From Blastomussa wellsi (lineage: Eukaryota > Cnidaria > Anthozoa > Scleractinia > Plerogyridae): a stretch of 64,000 nucleotides of DNA. Both the position numbers and the translations under genes were made by a program. The stretch is taken from contig OX393567.1 in assembly GCA_947652115.1 (NCBI GenBank), positions 26,345,644 through 26,409,643 of the forward strand. Reading direction: 5' to 3'. The notes under the pieces were generated by a model, which had not been told where the DNA came from, did no database searches, and worked only from the letters and a program-made list of their open reading frames with translations. Of the stretch, positions 7,646 through 44,500 are shown piece by piece. Every line of letters starts with the position of its first letter. Position 1 is the first letter of the stretch.

Positions 7646-10600
7646 ATGTTCAGTGCCGAGGAATTTGATATAAAAACTACCCAGCTAAAAGCCGAGGTGC
7701 TGCTATCAGAGCCTTCAAATCACCAAGAGCTTGAAAACGAAGAGAAGATTGAAAGAGAAACTTGTTCCTATGCAAGTGAATCAGCACGCTTCGTGCACCA
7801 AGAAAGAAGTTTTTCAAGACAATATGCGCAGATATATTCAGTCCGTATAATGGCAATGAGAAAGAAGCTAGCTGCAGCTGCAAGACGGAAATGGGGTTTG
7901 TAACTTTGTGGTAAAATTTTGTGTGTCGGTCACTTGGTAAATAACTCTTATTTGTCAGACCTTTGAGGGATTTTTCTGCATAGACTCCAAATTGGACTCA
8001 CATTTAATATGTGAGTCTAAAAAGGTTGCAGTTTTAGAATTCCGCAAAACGACTTCCAAATGTCAAACAAGTGGTCTCTGAAGCTCATGGACTAAAGCTT
8101 TAGAATGAAATGTAAAATTCCCATAGCATGAAGCAGTGGAATGGATCCCTGAGTTTATGCATTGAACTCCAGTGGAGTCGGGCTTTCATGTCAGGAAAAT
8201 CCCACATGATGACAGATCTCACTTGTTTCCCGAAAACCCAAATTTTGCCGATATGTCTGAAAATCTGCTCATCTGTCGCAGATTCTCCCAACATTAGCAC
8301 TGAAGCCAGCAAAAACTATCACCAGTTTTCCTAATGGTGCAGGTTTGAGTTTTCATATGCCAGGAATGATTACCGATCATTACAAAAATCTGGGACATCT
8401 TGGGAAAATAGATTAGAAACCTTCCCAATTTTCCTGCACTATCACAGACAGTGGAGGCATGTACTAAAACTAAGAATACTGGAATACCCTAAAACATGGA
8501 ACACCAGAACACCGCGGAACCAAAGAAAAATTCCTAATTATCTGCCGACCCGAACTATCATCACTAAACAAACGTAATGAACTCGTGTCTTCTTGCCGCC
8601 ACAGAAACAAAGCCCTTCTATGCAACAATTAAACTGTAAAATCTCGCGCTGCATATATTATGTAAATGAAATTGTATATAAGCGATGGTAAAGAATATTC
8701 TCATTAAATCCCCTGATGAGTGGGCAACCACGAAACAGGCTTGTAGGGATGACCTAGTAGTTTATTTGATTTTTCTCCCACAACATATACTTCGCTCTGC
8801 TTCTATGTATTGAGCACTGTTTTACGAAGATCAAATTTTACACTTTATGATCTTCGTAAAACAGTGCTCAATACATAGAAGCAGAGCATATATATATATA
8901 TATTCTAGTGTTCTGGTGTTCCATCTTTTGGGGTGTTATGGTGTTCCTGGTTTTAGTACATGCTGAAAGTGGAGGGTGTCTGCGATATTTTCAAGTTCCA
9001 TTAGCAGTTGATATAAATTTAATATCCCATTCAACAACATTCAACCATCCTAAATCTGTAAGGCAGAATTGTACATAATTTCTGAAGGAGCAGTTGTTAG
9101 AGTTGTCACTACCTGTGTAAATATTATTGTCAGTAATAATTTGTTACAGGTTTTAGTAATCACCTTATATTGCACAATTCTAAAAACTGTGACCACACAG
9201 TCATTGGAAAAAGTCTATGAATTTCTGTTTTGTAGGTGGTAAAGAGAGAAAATTTGAACTAAAGAAACTATCCGAAGTGAAAGCAGATGAAAAATGCTTT
9301 GTGATAGGAACATTATTCAAGAAAATGGAACTGAAGCCTAGTATTTTAAAGGAGATAAGTGAGGAGGTACATGTATGGCTTGAGACATAACAAATCCTGC
9401 TTAACTCATGACATTACAGGAAATTTTTTACACTTTTGAAAGAGAGATATTGTGGCATTTGAAATATAATTTTTATAATATGTCCCATGCTTTGTTAACA
9501 GCATAATTTGATGCCACAACCAGCCAGAGTTAAATATGTAGAAGACAGTGACGAACTTGTCATAGAAGATGAAACAGAAAGAGTCACTCTTACTGGTAAC
9601 ATTCCAGTGGGAACATCTGTTACAGGTATCTTGGTATGTCTTTTAATCAAAAAATAAAAATAGTAAAGAAATAAGGTGCTCCACTCTTCATGTGACGACA
9701 ACTTTAATAACACTTGAAATCATTGTCTATTATAGGAAGTATAGTAGCTCTCTGTGGCCACACAATTGACAGTGGTAAATTCTTTGTTGAAGAGCATTGC
9801 TTTAGCGGCCTTCCATACCAAACTGCACCAAACTTGGATCAGTGCATGTGTAGTGGTGAAGACAGGTGAGTATCTTTATCAGCTGTCTTACCCAATTTGG
9901 CATACCGGTATATTACCTATTTGGGTATTAGAGATCTTTAAAGTGTATATGACACTAAATTTATTTTTGTGCAGTCCTTTCTTAGTATGTCATAAATTTG
10001 AATTTCCAAAAAAAGTTTGACGATTTTTGCGGCCGAAATACTGCCAATTTCCCTACAACAGTGTCCCAGGAAACTGGGGACGAGAATTGTATTTGTGACG
10101 TCACAGTGTTAGATAGCATTGTTAGATAAACACATTGACGTCACAGGATAGTTTGACCACTCAATCTCTGGGACAATTCTAAGGTCGAAGTGGCGTATAT
10201 TTTAAACCAAAAAATTTGGTTTCAAGATACCTTCACAGTCGATAAGTTTCAAAATCCTTTTTCCAATAGCTAGATTATACCATAAACAACCAAAACCAGT
10301 GGAAAAAAAATACTGTACCTTGTACATTTTAAAGGGCGTGACACTAGTGACTGCAACAAGGACCTCGTCCCCACACATGTCCAATACTCACCACTTGATT
10401 CGAGTCGACAAAATGCGTCTGACTTTGGTTTTATAAAAATGACAGTACACTGTGTATCTTAATTAGGGCAACAAAAGAGAAAAAAGAGAGACCATGCTCT
10501 CAGAAACAATCTTATCATGTGAGGTTACAGGTTTAGACTGATACTCATGTAGTCATCACTAGATCACATGAGGAAACATATTAAAGATAGCGTAAACATA

Positions 10601-13600
10601 ACGACGGCCTAGAAGTCTGCTCAGTTCTTAAGTCCGGACGCTTATAGTAGCGCTATACCAAATAAAGATAAATTGTCAACATGATGGCATAGCGTTGCTA
10701 TGACAGCCTGAGAGTTGATCAGTTCCTAGCCTGGGATTGGATTGTCTTTAGTTGGTAACTGTCAGCAGTGACTCAAGGGACTCCTGAATGTAATTATTTC
10801 TAGACTTCTCACTGTGCCATCCCCCTTGCCATTGAAAAAGTTGATCTGGTGTACCACGGGCAGCCACTGCCGATGCTCCTTCTGCTTTTAGAGTGTGGAT
10901 TCCATACAAACTAGGCTCAAGCCCCTCCTTCAACAACAACAACAACTTGATTACAAGTTGGGATAGTTTGCCCGCAAATAGCTGAGAAGCTAGTCGAGGC
11001 GGGGCAAGACAAATACATGAACAACTCAAATAGAAAGAAACAATTTAAACCTCAAATTAAAACAAGCTTGCAGATTGCAAAATTACATGTAGATAAAACA
11101 AAGATCTAGTTAACACAGTGCTTACTGATGTATAATGCATTAAAATAGGGAGTCAGACTCTTTAAGGTTGATAGTAGACGTTAATTTAAGAGATTAACAA
11201 GTGTATCTATGTACCTACTTTTTGGATAATCATGGGGATTTGGGCATGGTGCACAATCGCTGTGTGCAATAAAGACCCAAGAACCTTCCCGGAACTGGTC
11301 GTTGTTCCTCTGTGCAAAAAAAATTGCCAGATGGGAATCTGCAAACTGAAGATTTATTCAGATTATTCAGATTATTCAGATCTTCCCAACGAAGGAAACC
11401 AAAGAATCCCAATGCAAACAGGGCAGCAACTTGAATATCCCCCAGATGGCCTTGTTCAAGCTGGCGGATGACCCTCATGACCTCGCTCACTTCCAAGGCT
11501 TTCTTGCGATTTGGAGGTTTTGCTAGAATCCATTGTCCAGCTTCTGCTACCTGGCAGACACTCATCTTGTGAACCCAGCTAGAGCCGTATACCACGGTGT
11601 TTAGCGTCGAAACTGAGCTCCCTTGCTGGATAAGATGCACCAAGTACAGGGCAAAAATTACAGGATTAGCAGGTAAAGCAGTGGCACTACACTGGATGGC
11701 CCATTTCTTCCATGCCTGATATGCCCGAACATATGAACTGACAGTCCTAGGTGCTCTATCTTGAATTAAAATACTTGGAAGAGATCTTGCAAGCGGCTGC
11801 AACTGTGGACGATTAGTGAGCTCATCATCCAACCAAACAGACAAGTTCACCTCCTTCTGGACAGTGTTAGGCACTGCAAATAAATTATGCCAGCAGTGAG
11901 CAACCGATTGTAACACATCGCTTAAGCAAATCCATCAACAAAACGAAACAATGCCAACAGCTACAACATATGGTGAACATGCACACATTCCGCATTCTAT
12001 ACCACCACATAGCCAACACAGTCGCAAGTGGTCTCTTTGGGATCAAAATTTTATTAGCCTGAATAACCCTTCTTGGCCAACACGGCTGGGGTTTTAAATA
12101 ACCATAACAGCAATAAAGCAATGACTAGCCCAAACAGCAATGTGATGATATCATTATAACAGGACATCGTAGCCCCTTTGGCCAGCACAGCTAGAGGCTA
12201 GATTGCCATGACAGTGGAAATGCAGTGATCCACCCAAACAGTAGTGATCTGTTTACAAAACAATGCCAAATGCTAAAGCAAAGACGAAGAGCGATGATAT
12301 GAAAGGACGGGATATCTGATGTGAAAATACTGCTAGCTGCTGCTCCTGTTAGAAAAATCTCTTCATATGGTTGAAACACTATTGAGTCAGTGACAAAGGG
12401 TCTCCAAGACCCAGTCATCTCAACCAGGAGTGGCCACCAAACATCTGAGGGCCAATGGGGAACAAGTAGAGCGCCAACCTCACCACCAGCTGACATGTGC
12501 CTCAGTACACGTGGTATGAGATATGGAGGAGGAAAAAGCCAATTGTTGTCCTTTGACCAGGTGACAGTAAATGCATCGACCAATTCACACCCCGGGTTGT
12601 GATATCTACTGCAGTATCTCTCCAGCTGCTTTGTCTGCATGCTTGCAAAACGATCTACCGTGTGAGGGCCCCATGCATCATTGATATAATGGAAGCACGA
12701 AGGATCCAGCATGTAATTGTTGGGGTCATCAAACCAAGATAAGATATCTGCCTCCACATTGTCGTCCCGGGCTCACCCATTCAGCAGACAAACGAATGTT
12801 CAAGTGTCGACACAGTTTGTAAACTGCCACTGCCTCCTGATGTAACTCATTTTTACTGCTTCCAACTGATAGAGCAATTTCGGCGTTCTTATTGTCTTTT
12901 TGTCTGGCTTTTTTCCTCATTAGCAACGAACCTGCTTAAAGCAATATCCTGATGTACCAACACAGACAGCTTCACAGCCACATCCTGGACCTGATGTGCG
13001 CCTGCACCATCATCCAAGCAGGTAAATATTCGGAACCCTTTACCCCTCCAGTTCTTTGAACCTTGGTGAAAAGATAAGGTCCCGTACACAACCAAATGGG
13101 AGACCCAGGAACTGAAAATATCTAAGGCGACCGTCATAGAAGAAAGAGAATCCAAGGAACTGACAATGCAGCGGAAAAATTTCTATGTGGTGGCAGCCAC
13201 TCTTGCAATCAAATTTAAAAAAACCAATCGCCCACAGAAAACAAGTCTGCAGCAGTTCTTATATCCTGATCACACTTAAATTTACAAGACCGTAAGTGAC
13301 AGTTAACATAACGCAAGTCCACAAAAAACCGAGTCTTGCCTGCAGAGTTCCTGACAACACCCAAAGGGTTGCAGACTGACAAATCTTCTCTTGAGACTTC
13401 AGCTATAGCACCAGGTACAAGTAACTTGGACACTTAGTGACTTATAAACTCTTCATTCTCAGCAGAGAAATAAAAGGCAAACTATAGCCATCACCTAGCA
13501 CATCAAGCACCCATCTGCTAGCCCCAATACTATTCCAAAACGCAAGTCTCTCTCTTAACCTCCCTTTAATAGGGGTGGCACAGGCCAGTTCAACTTCCAC

Positions 13601-16600
13601 AAGATTTAGATCAACACAAACAAGTTCACCAGAACAATAACCATCTTCCTCGGGATCGGTAACGACAAACTCACTATTGCTGATTTTCTGAGGGTTGTGC
13701 CGTACTTCGAGCCCACTCGGTTGCTTTTCACACAACAGATGCTCGGTGTTCACATGCAAAGCAGCGAAAAAACATACCTGCTAGATTTTTTGAGAACCAC
13801 GCGCCTCGACCGGTGTTCTCGCTGGGGAATCTTTTTGGTCTTCCACTTTGTTTAGGCCATCGACTTTCGCTTCTCCTCCCTCATCTGCTTACTTTCCTTT
13901 ATGGCCTTTTTTATTTGTTTGTCATCACCTGAGTCACTGGAAAGTGGCTCTGCCGTGTAGCATTCTACTGTATCCTACCCGTACTTGTATCCATAGCTGT
14001 GCTGATCTTGCCCAGAACATCTTTGTTCAGCCTGTATTGCTTTTTGTTACCTTCGAACTTGAACTTGTGCTCCTTATAACCTGGCTTTTCATGCTTTCAA
14101 CGCTTAGCAGAATCGAGTTCGCTCTTGATTCTCTTCAAATCTTCCCATACTCCTTCTGCTGTTGCAACAATTCCTTCACCCAAGAAGGGGGTTCTTCTGC
14201 CGTCGCCAGCGTTTGCACCGTCTCCCGCAATGACTCGGCAGAACTCCCATGTGGCTGGGCTGTTATTGAGCCTCAATCCTCACTAGACATGATACCAGGG
14301 ATTGAAAAAACCATGGACTGCGTGATATAAAACCAGATTTATAGAAAAGGCCAAAGGTCACATGACCCTTTCCCAGGTCCCAGCGGTATGTGAGAAAAAC
14401 ATTTTCCACTTATTTCGTGTCACTCAGCCAGTGGAAAATAACACTCGTTCTATCATCCATGAGCCAAAACGAGTGTGCACATGAATATACCGTGTTCTTT
14501 AGAAGTACTACCCCAGCGAGATTCAAACACTGGCAAGAAAAGGGCAGCCTACATGATTATTCCACATGCTTTCATCCATGGCCGAAACTGGCATATATAT
14601 GAATATACCATGCAGTGGTGGATCCAGGGGGAGGGTGGGGTAGTCCGGACCCCCCTTCCCTAACCAAATTTTTGTTTCTTCCGTTTTGACGATGAAATTC
14701 TTGCTTATCGCTTATTATCACTCAAACAAGAAACAATCGTACCACTCCATAGATTACAACGAATCATGCAATAAAAAAACAAGCTCCACCAAGCTGACAA
14801 ATAACCACTTGTCTACCCCATTTTTCGACATTGCCAACATTGCCTTAGTCAACTCTTACGACTCGACAAAACGCCATATACACCTAACGGCAGCAAAAAC
14901 TGGAAATTTTCTAAGCCCCCTTAATGAGATTCTCCATTTGACTAATATATATGTCAAGTGGAGAATTATACACCACTCAAATGACTTATAAAACATATTT
15001 GTCGACTCATATCAAGTGGTGAGTATTGGAGAACCCTCCTCCGCCCCTAATCTGGTCCTGCTTATTAATAAAGGTAAAAAATAACATGTCATTTATCTAT
15101 TCTTTGTTTTTTCTATTTATTCATTAGGTATGTGGCACTCATTTGTGGTCTTGGCTTTGGTAGTGAAAGCCAGGATTTACTCAGCCTTCAGATGTTTTCT
15201 GATTTGGTGACAGGAGAGCTTGGAAGTATTCAGGTGAGGTTCTTTACAGTGTAAAATTCAGGAAACCCTGCATGAACACCAGAAATATTCATGTACTATT
15301 CTTGTGTTACAAGGAAAAAGCCAACCAGGTGTAAGAAAATGGAAGCACAAACAACAACAGTAATTAGTTTGTCGAACTTTATTGTGATTGGTCACTACGC
15401 AATTGACAATAAGGTATTTTATAGGCATATTTTTATATAAATTATACTCCATCCTTACATAATTTGTGAAATTTGTTAGGAGCAAGAATCTTGTGCCAAG
15501 ATATGTCGTGTTATCGTTGCTGGCAATGCTTTAAGTCGGTGTACACAGACCAGAGACAGTGAAACAAAGGTATTTTAAATGGCTGGCTTGCAAGTTATAT
15601 TTCCACAGTTTAATTTAGCAAGCTACTGGTACTTCACTTTTTCCAATAATGTACATGATTAAAAAACTCTAATACTAAGATGAGCTTGTGGAAGGTGCCT
15701 GTGAAAGGGGTATTTGTGCCAGGTGAGATATAAGCCTAGAACAGGGCATGCAGTTATCATGGCAACCCTGAGAGTGGTAACCCCCACCAGAGACTGGCAC
15801 ACTAAAAGAATCAGTGGGGATACTTACCAACCCACATACATACCGCATCCACCAATCAGGGAGGGAGGGTGAGGTAGCAAACTGAAGCAGACAAGCATGT
15901 TTCAAGGCTTAAACAACTGCAACCCTTCACACAGCGTCTGGCCAAGTCACTATTTTGATGGGACAAAACTGCAGTGAGGTTGGACGTCATATTACATCTA
16001 TTTACTGCTCGATAATGTGTTGTCAACACAAAACATTGGTGTTTGCATTGAAAGGCGTAAAAATACGCCTGGGCATTCTGTCCGACCACAGTTGGGATTT
16101 CATCGGACATTGGCACATTTTGGTCGGCCACTGTCCGACTGTTATTTGCAGCCCTGATGTAGCCACATGTCAAGTACTTGCCAGACAGACAGTTGGATCA
16201 GATTAAGATCTGATGAAAGATTAAGGGGGAAGGATTAGGCAATGGCTGCACATTGGAGTGAAGTGTCACAAGTAACCATTGTCATCATCATCATCATCAT
16301 CATCAGTTCCATTTCCGTAGTTGGAAAATAGGGCCTTAAAAGGTAGTTGTCACAAGTAATAATTGCGAAGAAATGAAGCATTAGGCTAATTAAGGCATGG
16401 CTTTTAAAATTTATAAAATAGAGTCAGAAAATTTGTTATAGAATTTGTAAGTCACTCAGCGTATATAAGGTGTATAAAGAGCATGTGACTGAGATTTACA
16501 CTTCATTGTTCAATAAATGCATTCTAAAATTAATTAAAACCTCTTGCTGCAGGCAAAGTACCTGACTAGAAATGCAGTAGCTGGAAGTGTGGAAGCTATC

Positions 16601-41500: not shown

Positions 41501-44500
41501 CAGTTATGCAATAATGGCATCATGCTGGGTCACAGACCTCTGTGTGTCGTATTTTCAAACACCAGTGTTCGGCTATTCTGGCCATTTTTGGCCGTCAATT
41601 TTGATATTTCTCAATGACTCCAAATCTAGCTACATGATTTCTCAAGCATATTTATGTGTTAGGTAGGTTCTTTGGCCTATGCCCTTGTCTAAGTTTTCTG
41701 GGTTAAAAATCACTCAAATTATGAAAACAGATTCAAAGGGACTGGAAAAGAATGTCTTGCCTTGGAAACAGGATTTAGTCATAACTGCAGGTGTGTCCAC
41801 CTGATGAACTATTTGTGTGCCAAGTTTCAATTGTCTCAGTAGAAAACTGACTGAAATAGCCCTATTTATTTACTTGATATAAAATTGGGTTGCATAGATG
41901 ACGTCATCAGTCTCCTAATTTGCATATTTGACCAATTTTTTAAACTTGAATATCTCGGGAACTACTACAGATATTTGAAAACAGAAAACGACATTTTTAA
42001 TCTCACATGAAGCACTGCATGATTCCCTTCATAAAGCAAGGTGCAAAAATTTGATCACAGTAGTATTATAACACTTCACCATCAAACACATTTCTCCACT
42101 CTGCCTAATTTCAGAATCTCAGTCACTGTCTATTTAACTATACCATATGCTTAGAAGAATAAGCATGACTTTTGACAAGGTTCGTACACATCTTGAAAAT
42201 CCTTGAAAACCCTTGAATTTCAGAATTCCAATTTCAAAGTAATTGAAATTGGTTTCTGATCCTTGAAAGTCCTTCACTTTTTATTGAAAAACATAAACAA
42301 TATCTGGCGTTTGCCAGTGAATCTTGAATAACAAATTGCTTGTTCATTCCCAGTGGTCTCTCATTTTTCTCGTCAGAAAGAGGTCCTTGAAAATTAATGT
42401 CAAAATAGGGTCCTGGAAAGTCCTTGAAATTTAGCCCTGAAAAAGCCTACAAACCTTGTTTTTAACTAAGAAAATTTCATTGCGATGAAATCAATTATTT
42501 ATTGTTATCATTTGGATGATGATAATCTTTTTGTCAATTAGCTAAATTCAATGCAATAATTGATTGTTTGGTAATTGAGCTCCCTGAAAAAACATGTTGG
42601 CCGTCTGTCAATGTCTCTGTAACATGTTGGTAACTTGTCGGTAACCTGTCGTTAAAATGTTACACTAACCTCAATATTTTTCCTCAGTTTTTGCCGACAA
42701 ACGGCCAACAGTCAGCCAACTGTCGGCCGACAAACGGCCAACAGACTGCCTTCAGTCAGTCGACTGACCTCAGACAGTAGACCGAAATGTTTTTCAGGGA
42801 GCTCTTCTTCACAATTACCAAACAGATTGTTTCATGACATCAGTAAGTAGTTATCACTGTACAGTTGGTCAATGTAAGTTATACAACAACAATCTTTCCA
42901 GAAACGTCTGTTCATGCATGCATGCACACACAAAGAAGTTAGAACGAAAAACGAAAAAGGGATGTGCACTCAAACACTGGAAAATAAAAGTACATCAGTG
43001 TAGTAGTCAGTAGTTGGATATAATCAATTCTTTTGAGAGTTGAAACAAGTATACTTATAACAAGTAATTGTTGTGTTCTTTATATTCACTACAGGAATTT
43101 GAATGTAATGCAGAGGATTTAAAACAGTTAAAGGAGCTTGGTCATGGAGCATATGGTTATGTATACAAAATGATACATGAACCCACAGGGCACATTATGG
43201 CAGTCAAGGTACATTATATATATTGAAGAATAGTTCATAGACAGTTTTAGATCCTTCCTACTTGTCTTCAGAATGCCAGTCTTTAATTTAAGTTTTGTTG
43301 TTTATTTTGCAGAGAATACGGGCCAATGTAAACTCAACAGAGCAGAAGAGGCTTCTAATGGATTTGGATGTTTCTATGCGAGTTACTGACTGTCCATACA
43401 CTGTGCATTTTTATGGTGCATTGTTTAGAGAGGTCTGTCAGCTTTCATAACTATTAAAAACTCCTGACCACTGAGAAGGAAACACTGCATAACAGCAACT
43501 GAATTCTGCTGCAACAGTTTTCCTCAAAATGATCTTTAGAGTGTCCTTGTACCCTATTGTTCTTTTTAAAATTCTTTTAATTGATATTTTCAGTTCACTG
43601 AAAGGAAAACTACTGTTAGTTGGAGCCCACAGGAATTTGGAAATTTTATATTCCCCTATCTGAAAGAATCAATAGTCTATTCATAATTTATGATCATAAA
43701 TGAGGATTTATCATAATTTATGATCATAAATGAGGAGAGGATAATTTCTGAATTGGAATAAAGAAGCCTGAAAAATTCATGGCTTCAACGGAATGGAACC
43801 TGTGACATTTGCAATGCTGGTGTGATGCTCTCCAACTGAGCTATCAAGCCCCACGTTGGGAGTGAGGTCAATTTATTGAATTCATAATTTCCTGTGAGGA
43901 GTGAAATGATGCAAAGTATATTGAAACAATTCATATGTGAACTGCAGATGTAGATGAAAGTGAGAAGTGATCATCACATTGAATTTCCAATTTAAACAAT
44001 TGGAATAAAGAAGCCTGAAAAAATTCAGGGCCACAACAGGAATTGAACCTGTGACCTCCCTGATACTGGTATGATGCTCTACCAACTGAGCTAATTGAAG
44101 CCACACATTGGAAGCAAGGTCAATATAATTATTGAGTTTGTATTTTCCGGAACATGATACTCTGTCACAAGGCTAGGTTTGGCCTGTTCAAGATTCAGTG
44201 GGTTAAAACTAAAACAAATTGGCTCAAGCATCACACTTCTCATACCCATTTGACACTACAAACAATCTTGTCCCCAGAGCCCACGCTATTTGGTCAGTGC
44301 ATAGTGCTTTGCTTTGAATCTCAGCCAAGCAGTTGGAGCAAGCAAACGTAAGTCTGCATAGAATGACCAGAAGACTGAAATGTGGACAGTAGATTTCAAG
44401 ACTGGCCAGATTCCACATTCTTGGTGGTGGGCTCTGGGGACAAGATTGCACTACAACCAGTTCAAAGTAACCTGACAGAGTTGAAATCGCTGATTGTTGG

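Follow-up and report, generated by a model that had tools for sequence, protein, structure and literature searches.

In our analysis, the hammerhead ribozyme (HHR) at positions 8708 to 8750 on the forward strand of a 64,000-nucleotide stretch of Blastomussa wellsi DNA (hereafter, the window) was very probably the resident ribozyme of a family of Penelope-like elements (PLEs), with the window holding a dead, 5'-truncated copy of such an element that inserted, in sense orientation, into intron 1 of a POLD2-like gene. This reading was built on the anatomy of the element, its dispersed copies, tandem units and ends, and on a ribozyme that is conserved and covaries across three families. The preliminary description of this DNA had presented the HHR as belonging to the POLD2 intron itself, and that view gave way, as the motif belongs to a dispersed PLE fragment (40 scored genome places, with the end of the PLE open reading frame at 8522 to 8632). 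Its mention of Penelope-like elements as a source of such ribozymes was borne out, as the repeat, seen in longer copies, proved to be the 3' end of a PLE.

Every element of the complete type I HHR with a short stem III claimed in the preliminary description could be read directly on the forward strand. Stem I is a plain helix of 5 bp between AUCCC (8708-8712) and GGGAU (8746-8750), and is followed by the first part of the core, CUGAUGA (8713-8719). Stem II has 4 bp (GUGG at 8720-8723 with CCAC at 8728-8731) closed by a GCAA loop, and the second part of the core, GAAA (8732-8735), leads into stem III, where ACA (8735-8737) pairs with UGU (8742-8744) across a GGCU loop; the 3 bp of stem III include the conserved A-U pair. 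The cleavage triplet GUA ends at 8745, and the predicted cut falls between A8745 and G8746. The motif has the CUGANGA and GAAA core, three stems, a UH cleavage site and an open end at stem I, as type I hammerheads do, and a contact between the loops of stems I and II, a canonical type I feature, was not evident by eye. We regard the HHR as confirmed and correctly spotted because two results decide the matter, namely, a match to a covariance model from which this ribozyme was held out (E 2.2e-8) and the covariation between families described below.

To estimate chance expectation, single-strand sequence matching the window in dinucleotide composition was simulated (4.316 Gb). A strict motif definition (at least 5, 4 and 3 pairs in stems I, II and III) matched 39 times and a looser one (at least 4 pairs in stem I and 3 in stem II) matched 320 times, which by arithmetic corresponds to about 0.001 (strict) or 0.01 (looser) matches in the window on both strands and to about 7 or 55, respectively, in a genome of 368 Mb. 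The HHR at 8708 to 8750 was the sole match to the motif definition in the window on either strand. The earlier statement that a chance match is very unlikely was upheld for the 64-kb window, where about 0.001 to 0.01 are expected, and was not decisive genome-wide. The core pattern by itself (CTGANGAN{4,30}CGAAA) performed at chance level, with 0.79 matches expected and 1 found.

The Rfam type I model, RF00163 (Hammerhead_1), which the preliminary description had named as a check with a sub-threshold score counting against the ribozyme, gave 12.2 bits against a gathering threshold of 34 (E 2 in a search of 71 bases). The alignment covered the full model (positions 1-45) with the same core and stem layout, although the score was far below threshold. 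When 451 bases were searched, the HHR was not listed up to E 10, and a search of the whole window with Rfam at gathering level returned no ribozyme match. Two loci elsewhere in the genome, L003 and L063, which between them hold the PLE ribozymes of two other families and one copy of the window family, also gave nothing with RF00163 up to E 1, in a test made stricter than the 71-base search by the longer sequence. Because of this result, we take RF00163 to be a poor yardstick for the PLE class of HHRs. The 43-mer was not unusually stable when folded (z -1.07; 30 of 200 shuffles equally stable), and its hammerhead fold, at -9.6 kcal/mol, was outcompeted by a best fold of -12.5 kcal/mol that pairs CCUG with CAGG. 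The hammerhead was absent from the best fold of all four longer stretches that were folded.

The PLE copy extends from 8521 to 8848 on the forward strand and represents the 3' end of the element, with boundaries taken from the aligned copies. It opens with the last 36 codons and stop codon of the PLE ORF (8522-8632), read directly and corresponding to where the endonuclease region ends in longer copies (L003, L041) and in a public protein, P0001. The stop codon is separated from the HHR by 75 nt of 3' untranslated sequence (8633-8707), evident by direct reading and in the aligned copies, and a further stretch (8751-8848) runs from the ribozyme to the 3' end of the insertion. The central 161 bases of the repeat were scored, from 162 first-look candidates, at 40 places in the 368-Mb genome, the window's included, with 96-100% identity. 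The alignment comprised 41 copies from 36 loci, again with the window copy included, and the copies were 95-100% like that in the window. Of the 41 alignments (window copy included), 27 extend to base 1 of the 328-base query, and the window copy was judged to be 5'-truncated because the other 26 share more sequence further upstream.

A perfect 40-bp palindrome with a 14-nt loop occupies 8794 to 8887, as identified by an inverted-repeat search. Its left arm (8794-8833, forward strand) belongs to the 3' end of the element, and its right arm (8848-8887, reverse strand) is an inverted, tail-to-tail copy of the left that was not seen behind any of the other 40 copies in the alignment. Matches below gathering to several Rfam families of microRNA precursors cover this region; a microRNA at 8776 to 8911 was considered and set aside, as all of these matches were sub-threshold and were put down to the perfect palindrome, with no microRNA evidence. 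Copies in opposite orientation occur within single loci elsewhere (L007, L013, L027, L035). The PLE insertion is also flanked by a 56-nt inverted repeat (8457-8512 and 8908-8963, 84% complementary), and its target may have been a different element that carries inverted repeats. Elsewhere in the window, ORFs at 11230 to 13780 on the reverse strand, which we take to encode the tyrosine recombinase and reverse transcriptase of a DIRS-like retrotransposon, mark a candidate element of that kind. The reverse strand also carries a histone 3' UTR stem-loop (RF00032; 56129-56173; 35 bits, gathering 34) and two weak tRNA matches (43780-43850 and 44036-44093; 30.1 and 29.2 bits, gathering 29).

Within the family, the HHR appeared constrained when all variants were counted (10 of 1748 HHR cells and 174 of 10552 others). 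This was not significant once variants present in more than three copies were removed, leaving 10 of 1748 cells in the HHR and 84 of 10552 elsewhere (P = 0.38), and the idea of constraint within the family was dropped. As expected, no constraint on the HHR was detectable after insertion, which fits dead, drifting copies.

Comparison between families was more informative. The genome also contains two diverged PLE families whose HHRs occupy the corresponding position and differ from the window HHR in stems I and II. The first, at L063, is 68% identical in DNA to a portion of the window-family unit start and carries an HHR upstream of the ORF, with a second, inverted HHR copy nearby. The second (L003/L041, one place seen twice) has a frameshifted PLE ORF containing YRDDGLAV and YVGLATNFKERYRNHTASF, with an HHR about 170 nt beyond it. 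Stem II measures 9-10 bp in the HHRs of both families. Between them, 7 of 17 stem pairs are changed on both sides, and their alignment contains no unpaired cell (3 distinct rows, 49 cells). With three rows of the window family added (6 sequences, 3 families), 97.2% of 72 cells pair, compared with 25-46% when the partner is slid. Both-sided change occurs in this alignment at 4 pairs (3 of 5 in stem I and 1 of 4 in stem II), a count that 24 of 500 shuffles also reached, and two of the shuffle controls were weak (24 and 106 of 500). The outermost pair of stem I is broken in 2 of the 6 rows, and stem III is invariant across them and uninformative on covariation. On the basis of these alignments, compensatory changes appear to have preserved the stems of the HHR across its relatives. 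A 3-bp stem III that can close (ACA/UGU) is common to the three families seen, which is slightly unusual.

A covariance model (R1) was built from the two other families alone (4 rows, 3 distinct). Searched against the 64-kb window, R1 found the window HHR as the sole match up to E 10, at 33.5 bits and E 2.2e-8; E-values from this model are rough, and the margin is large. When R1 was searched against 56 loci, 57 matches reached E 1 or better; the training rows of the model took the top four places, and the two lowest, at 14.0 and 13.4 bits, were doubtful.

The coding part of the element was recovered from longer copies, in which an ORF with ETYIGLTENDFKTRYRNHTSSFRHAKHRNSTELSKHIW lies upstream (L003). 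For the ORF of a longer unit, L039:3444-4802, 8000 candidates were scored; 4525 were relatives at E <= 0.001, and the best 120 of them were listed. The closest was P0001 (707 aa, 90% identical), which has YRDDGLAI and an endonuclease-like end, as in the window-family ORF. Across 36 proteins chosen by hand from the 120 listed, Y343 R344 D345 D346, R614, H618, E673 and N687 were invariant. The YRDD motif and the C-terminal residues are, we presume, those of the reverse transcriptase and GIY-YIG endonuclease of a PLE. Among the 120 listed relatives, 4 had a precomputed Pfam RVT_1 assignment, and in P0052 RVT_1 scored below cut-off (E 9.3e-6). P0001 gave no RT or GIY-YIG match in Pfam, and neither Pfam searches with three pieces of the ORF nor an NCBIfam search gave anything above cut-off. 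No match was found among solved structures for the L039 ORF, P0001 or alignment A1, no relative of P0001 or A1 among viral contigs, and no match to the repeat in a phage collection. A reverse transcriptase and a C-terminal GIY-YIG endonuclease in a single ORF, as in endonuclease-bearing (EN+) PLEs, are indicated by motif only, together with the anatomy of the element.

In L039, a unit starts with ACCCGCTCCAAG..., and the ATG of the RT ORF follows 47 nt on. A genome-wide search with this unit start yielded 22 candidates and 23 match rows, and the sequence preceding the unit start was inspected at six loci (L042, L043, L044, L045, L046 and L056); a 34-base row, L064, is the other junction in L039 and was not counted, and the remaining rows stop short of the unit start. 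At three of the six (L042, L044 and L045), the order was HHR, element end, and then the start of the next unit and ORF, i.e., the tandem or partial tandem units with a pseudo-LTR (pLTR) that mark PLEs. Of the others, L043 begins exactly at the unit start, L046 at about the equivalent of 8716, and L056 (minus strand) at the equivalent of 8747, one base off the cleavage site, which is a single case. L039:931-3427 holds two PLE ends with HHRs in the same orientation, 2131 bases apart, just before a PLE ORF; each is preceded by a near-identical 165-aa ORF, and the arrangement looks like a tandem duplication.

At the 3' end, 27 of the 41 copies, the window's included, end at 8848 and 3 at 8847. Among the 29 non-window copies ending at these two positions, 4 continue into the next unit and 25 into other DNA, which is 83% AT (window, 61%) and starts with ATAT or TATA in 15 cases. 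In a search that favoured full-length matches, shorter ends were found at 8810/8812 in 2 of the 41 copies and at 8789 in 4 others, which gives weak support to the 30-40 nt tail that is optional in PLEs. Directly behind the copy end, tandem units have a predicted hairpin (GCUC...GAGC). Judging from these ends, reverse transcription probably starts internally, where the copies end, at AT-rich targets.

The preferred reading, that the HHR is resident in the PLE, would have the following course. In tandem, pLTR-type arrays, the HHR sits between the end of the RT-endonuclease ORF of one unit and the start of the next, and the array transcript would be cut once per unit, leaving a 5'-OH end beginning with GGGAUGACC. 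Reverse transcription would then start internally, about 103 nt past the cut and just before the hairpin, priming on AT-rich DNA, and a truncated copy would have brought an intact ribozyme into the POLD2-like intron 1. Cleavage by the HHR, its service to the PLE and the start of reverse transcription where copies end are the conditional parts of this scheme. Counting against it are the low Rfam score, the lack of constraint after insertion, the more stable competing folds, the loop contact not evident by eye, the unit starts (one in six near the cleavage site), the missing Pfam match in P0001, and the broken stem I pair and weak shuffle controls.

PLE HHRs are already in print (Cervera and de la Pena 2014, as summarized in the available portions of PMC6155905, PMC7229834 and PMC7761336), and the window HHR adds another. 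In those accounts, as here, they are type I with a short or minimal helix III and lie in pLTRs in many dispersed copies; they are usually described there without helix III, whereas three families here have a closable helix of three pairs. According to the accessible sections of PMC11167929, the Poseidon PLE of Anolis carolinensis likewise has tandem units and an HHR near the junction of pLTR and ORF; its reverse transcription begins internally, in a stem loop that lies downstream of the HHR, and its protein prefers AT-rich targets. The Poseidon HHR, however, is described there with stems I and II and overlaps the ORF start, whereas the window-family HHR has a stem III and lies 75 nt after the stop of one ORF and about 150 nt before the ATG of the next unit. 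Poseidon reverse transcription begins 111-118 bases into the ORF, whereas window-family copies end about 47 nt before the ATG. Penelope elements of Adineta vaga, as far as PMC3846280 was available, share palindromes, inverted pLTR pairs at ends, 5' truncation and possibly a short optional tail with the present family; their inverted pairs are mostly head-to-head, whereas the palindrome in the window is tail-to-tail.

A stronger version of this scheme would hold that stem III is kept so that each HHR cuts as a monomer, that the cut sets the 5' end of the copied RNA, and that intronic sense copies can still cut host pre-mRNAs. The second of these ideas draws on the single unit start among six that is one base off the predicted cut. 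Against it, the other five lie at about 8716 (one), at the unit junction (one) or in tandem (three), and we consider the version unlikely. In the available text of PMC11167929, the Anolis HHR cut in vitro only with protein, core mutants left in vitro insertion unaffected, and no RNA-seq reads were found ending at the cleavage site. In a review, the part of PMC7761336 available to us calls the role of HHRs in PLEs unknown.

The preliminary description put the HHR on the sense strand of POLD2 intron 1, and this location stood. The ORF from 7646 (MFSAEEF...) and GTLFK at 9307 belong to what we take, by comparison with the human protein, to be POLD2-like exons 1 and 2 (7646-7895, end approximate, and 9240-9380, ends approximate; forward strand), and the PLE insertion lies in sense between them. 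The consequences suggested there, cutting of POLD2 pre-mRNA or release of small RNAs, were unsupported, given a dispersed PLE copy and a competing fold 2.9 kcal/mol more stable. An HHR that functions in the intron, cutting the pre-mRNA or intron and tuning expression as proposed for intronic amniote HHRs, could draw on the complete core, the sense orientation and the first-intron position, and conserved intronic HHRs are reported for RECK, CTCL and DTNB in the consulted part of PMC6155905. The same stretch, however, occurs at 39 other scored places, the insertion looks young because the aligned copies are 95-100% like that in the window, the alternative fold is more stable than the hammerhead, and, as far as PMC11167929 was available, the Anolis PLE HHR showed no cleavage in vitro unless protein was present. 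A function of this kind is very unlikely in our judgment. The sense position in the POLD2-like intron 1 says where the copy lies and does not amount to a function; many other copies exist, and the HHR probably does nothing for POLD2.

The repeat could also be regarded as a short non-autonomous retrozyme or SINE-like element, comparable to Sm-alpha of Schistosoma or the metazoan retrozymes, rather than a PLE. At about 330 bp, the window copy falls within the retrozyme size of 170-400 nt given in the available text of PMC7229834. That length, however, was set by truncation, as 26 other copies share sequence upstream, which in L003 includes an endonuclease ORF, and HHRs of the same family and strand were never closer than 2131 bases among 56 loci. 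A metazoan retrozyme is a non-coding tandem unit of that size with a type I HHR, and the present element is coding and longer. The end of the PLE ORF at 8522 to 8632 ruled out a retrozyme or SINE for the window copy, and we give this explanation hardly any weight. A chance fit of a sequence inside the repeat to the hammerhead pattern, for which one could cite the loose definition with about 55 matches per 368-Mb genome, the low Rfam score and the lack of constraint in rare variants, has a negligible probability, as covarying HHRs sit at the matching place in two diverged PLE families and R1, built from those alone, finds the window HHR at E 2.2e-8, which in our view ruled it out.

Our findings suggest that the Rfam type I model misses PLE HHRs of this kind. 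A ribozyme that appeared to be bound to a gene turned out to be the baggage of a mobile element. With a genome that holds three PLE HHR families, all with a stem III that can close, B. wellsi offers a clean example of PLE ribozymes and a good test bed for them.
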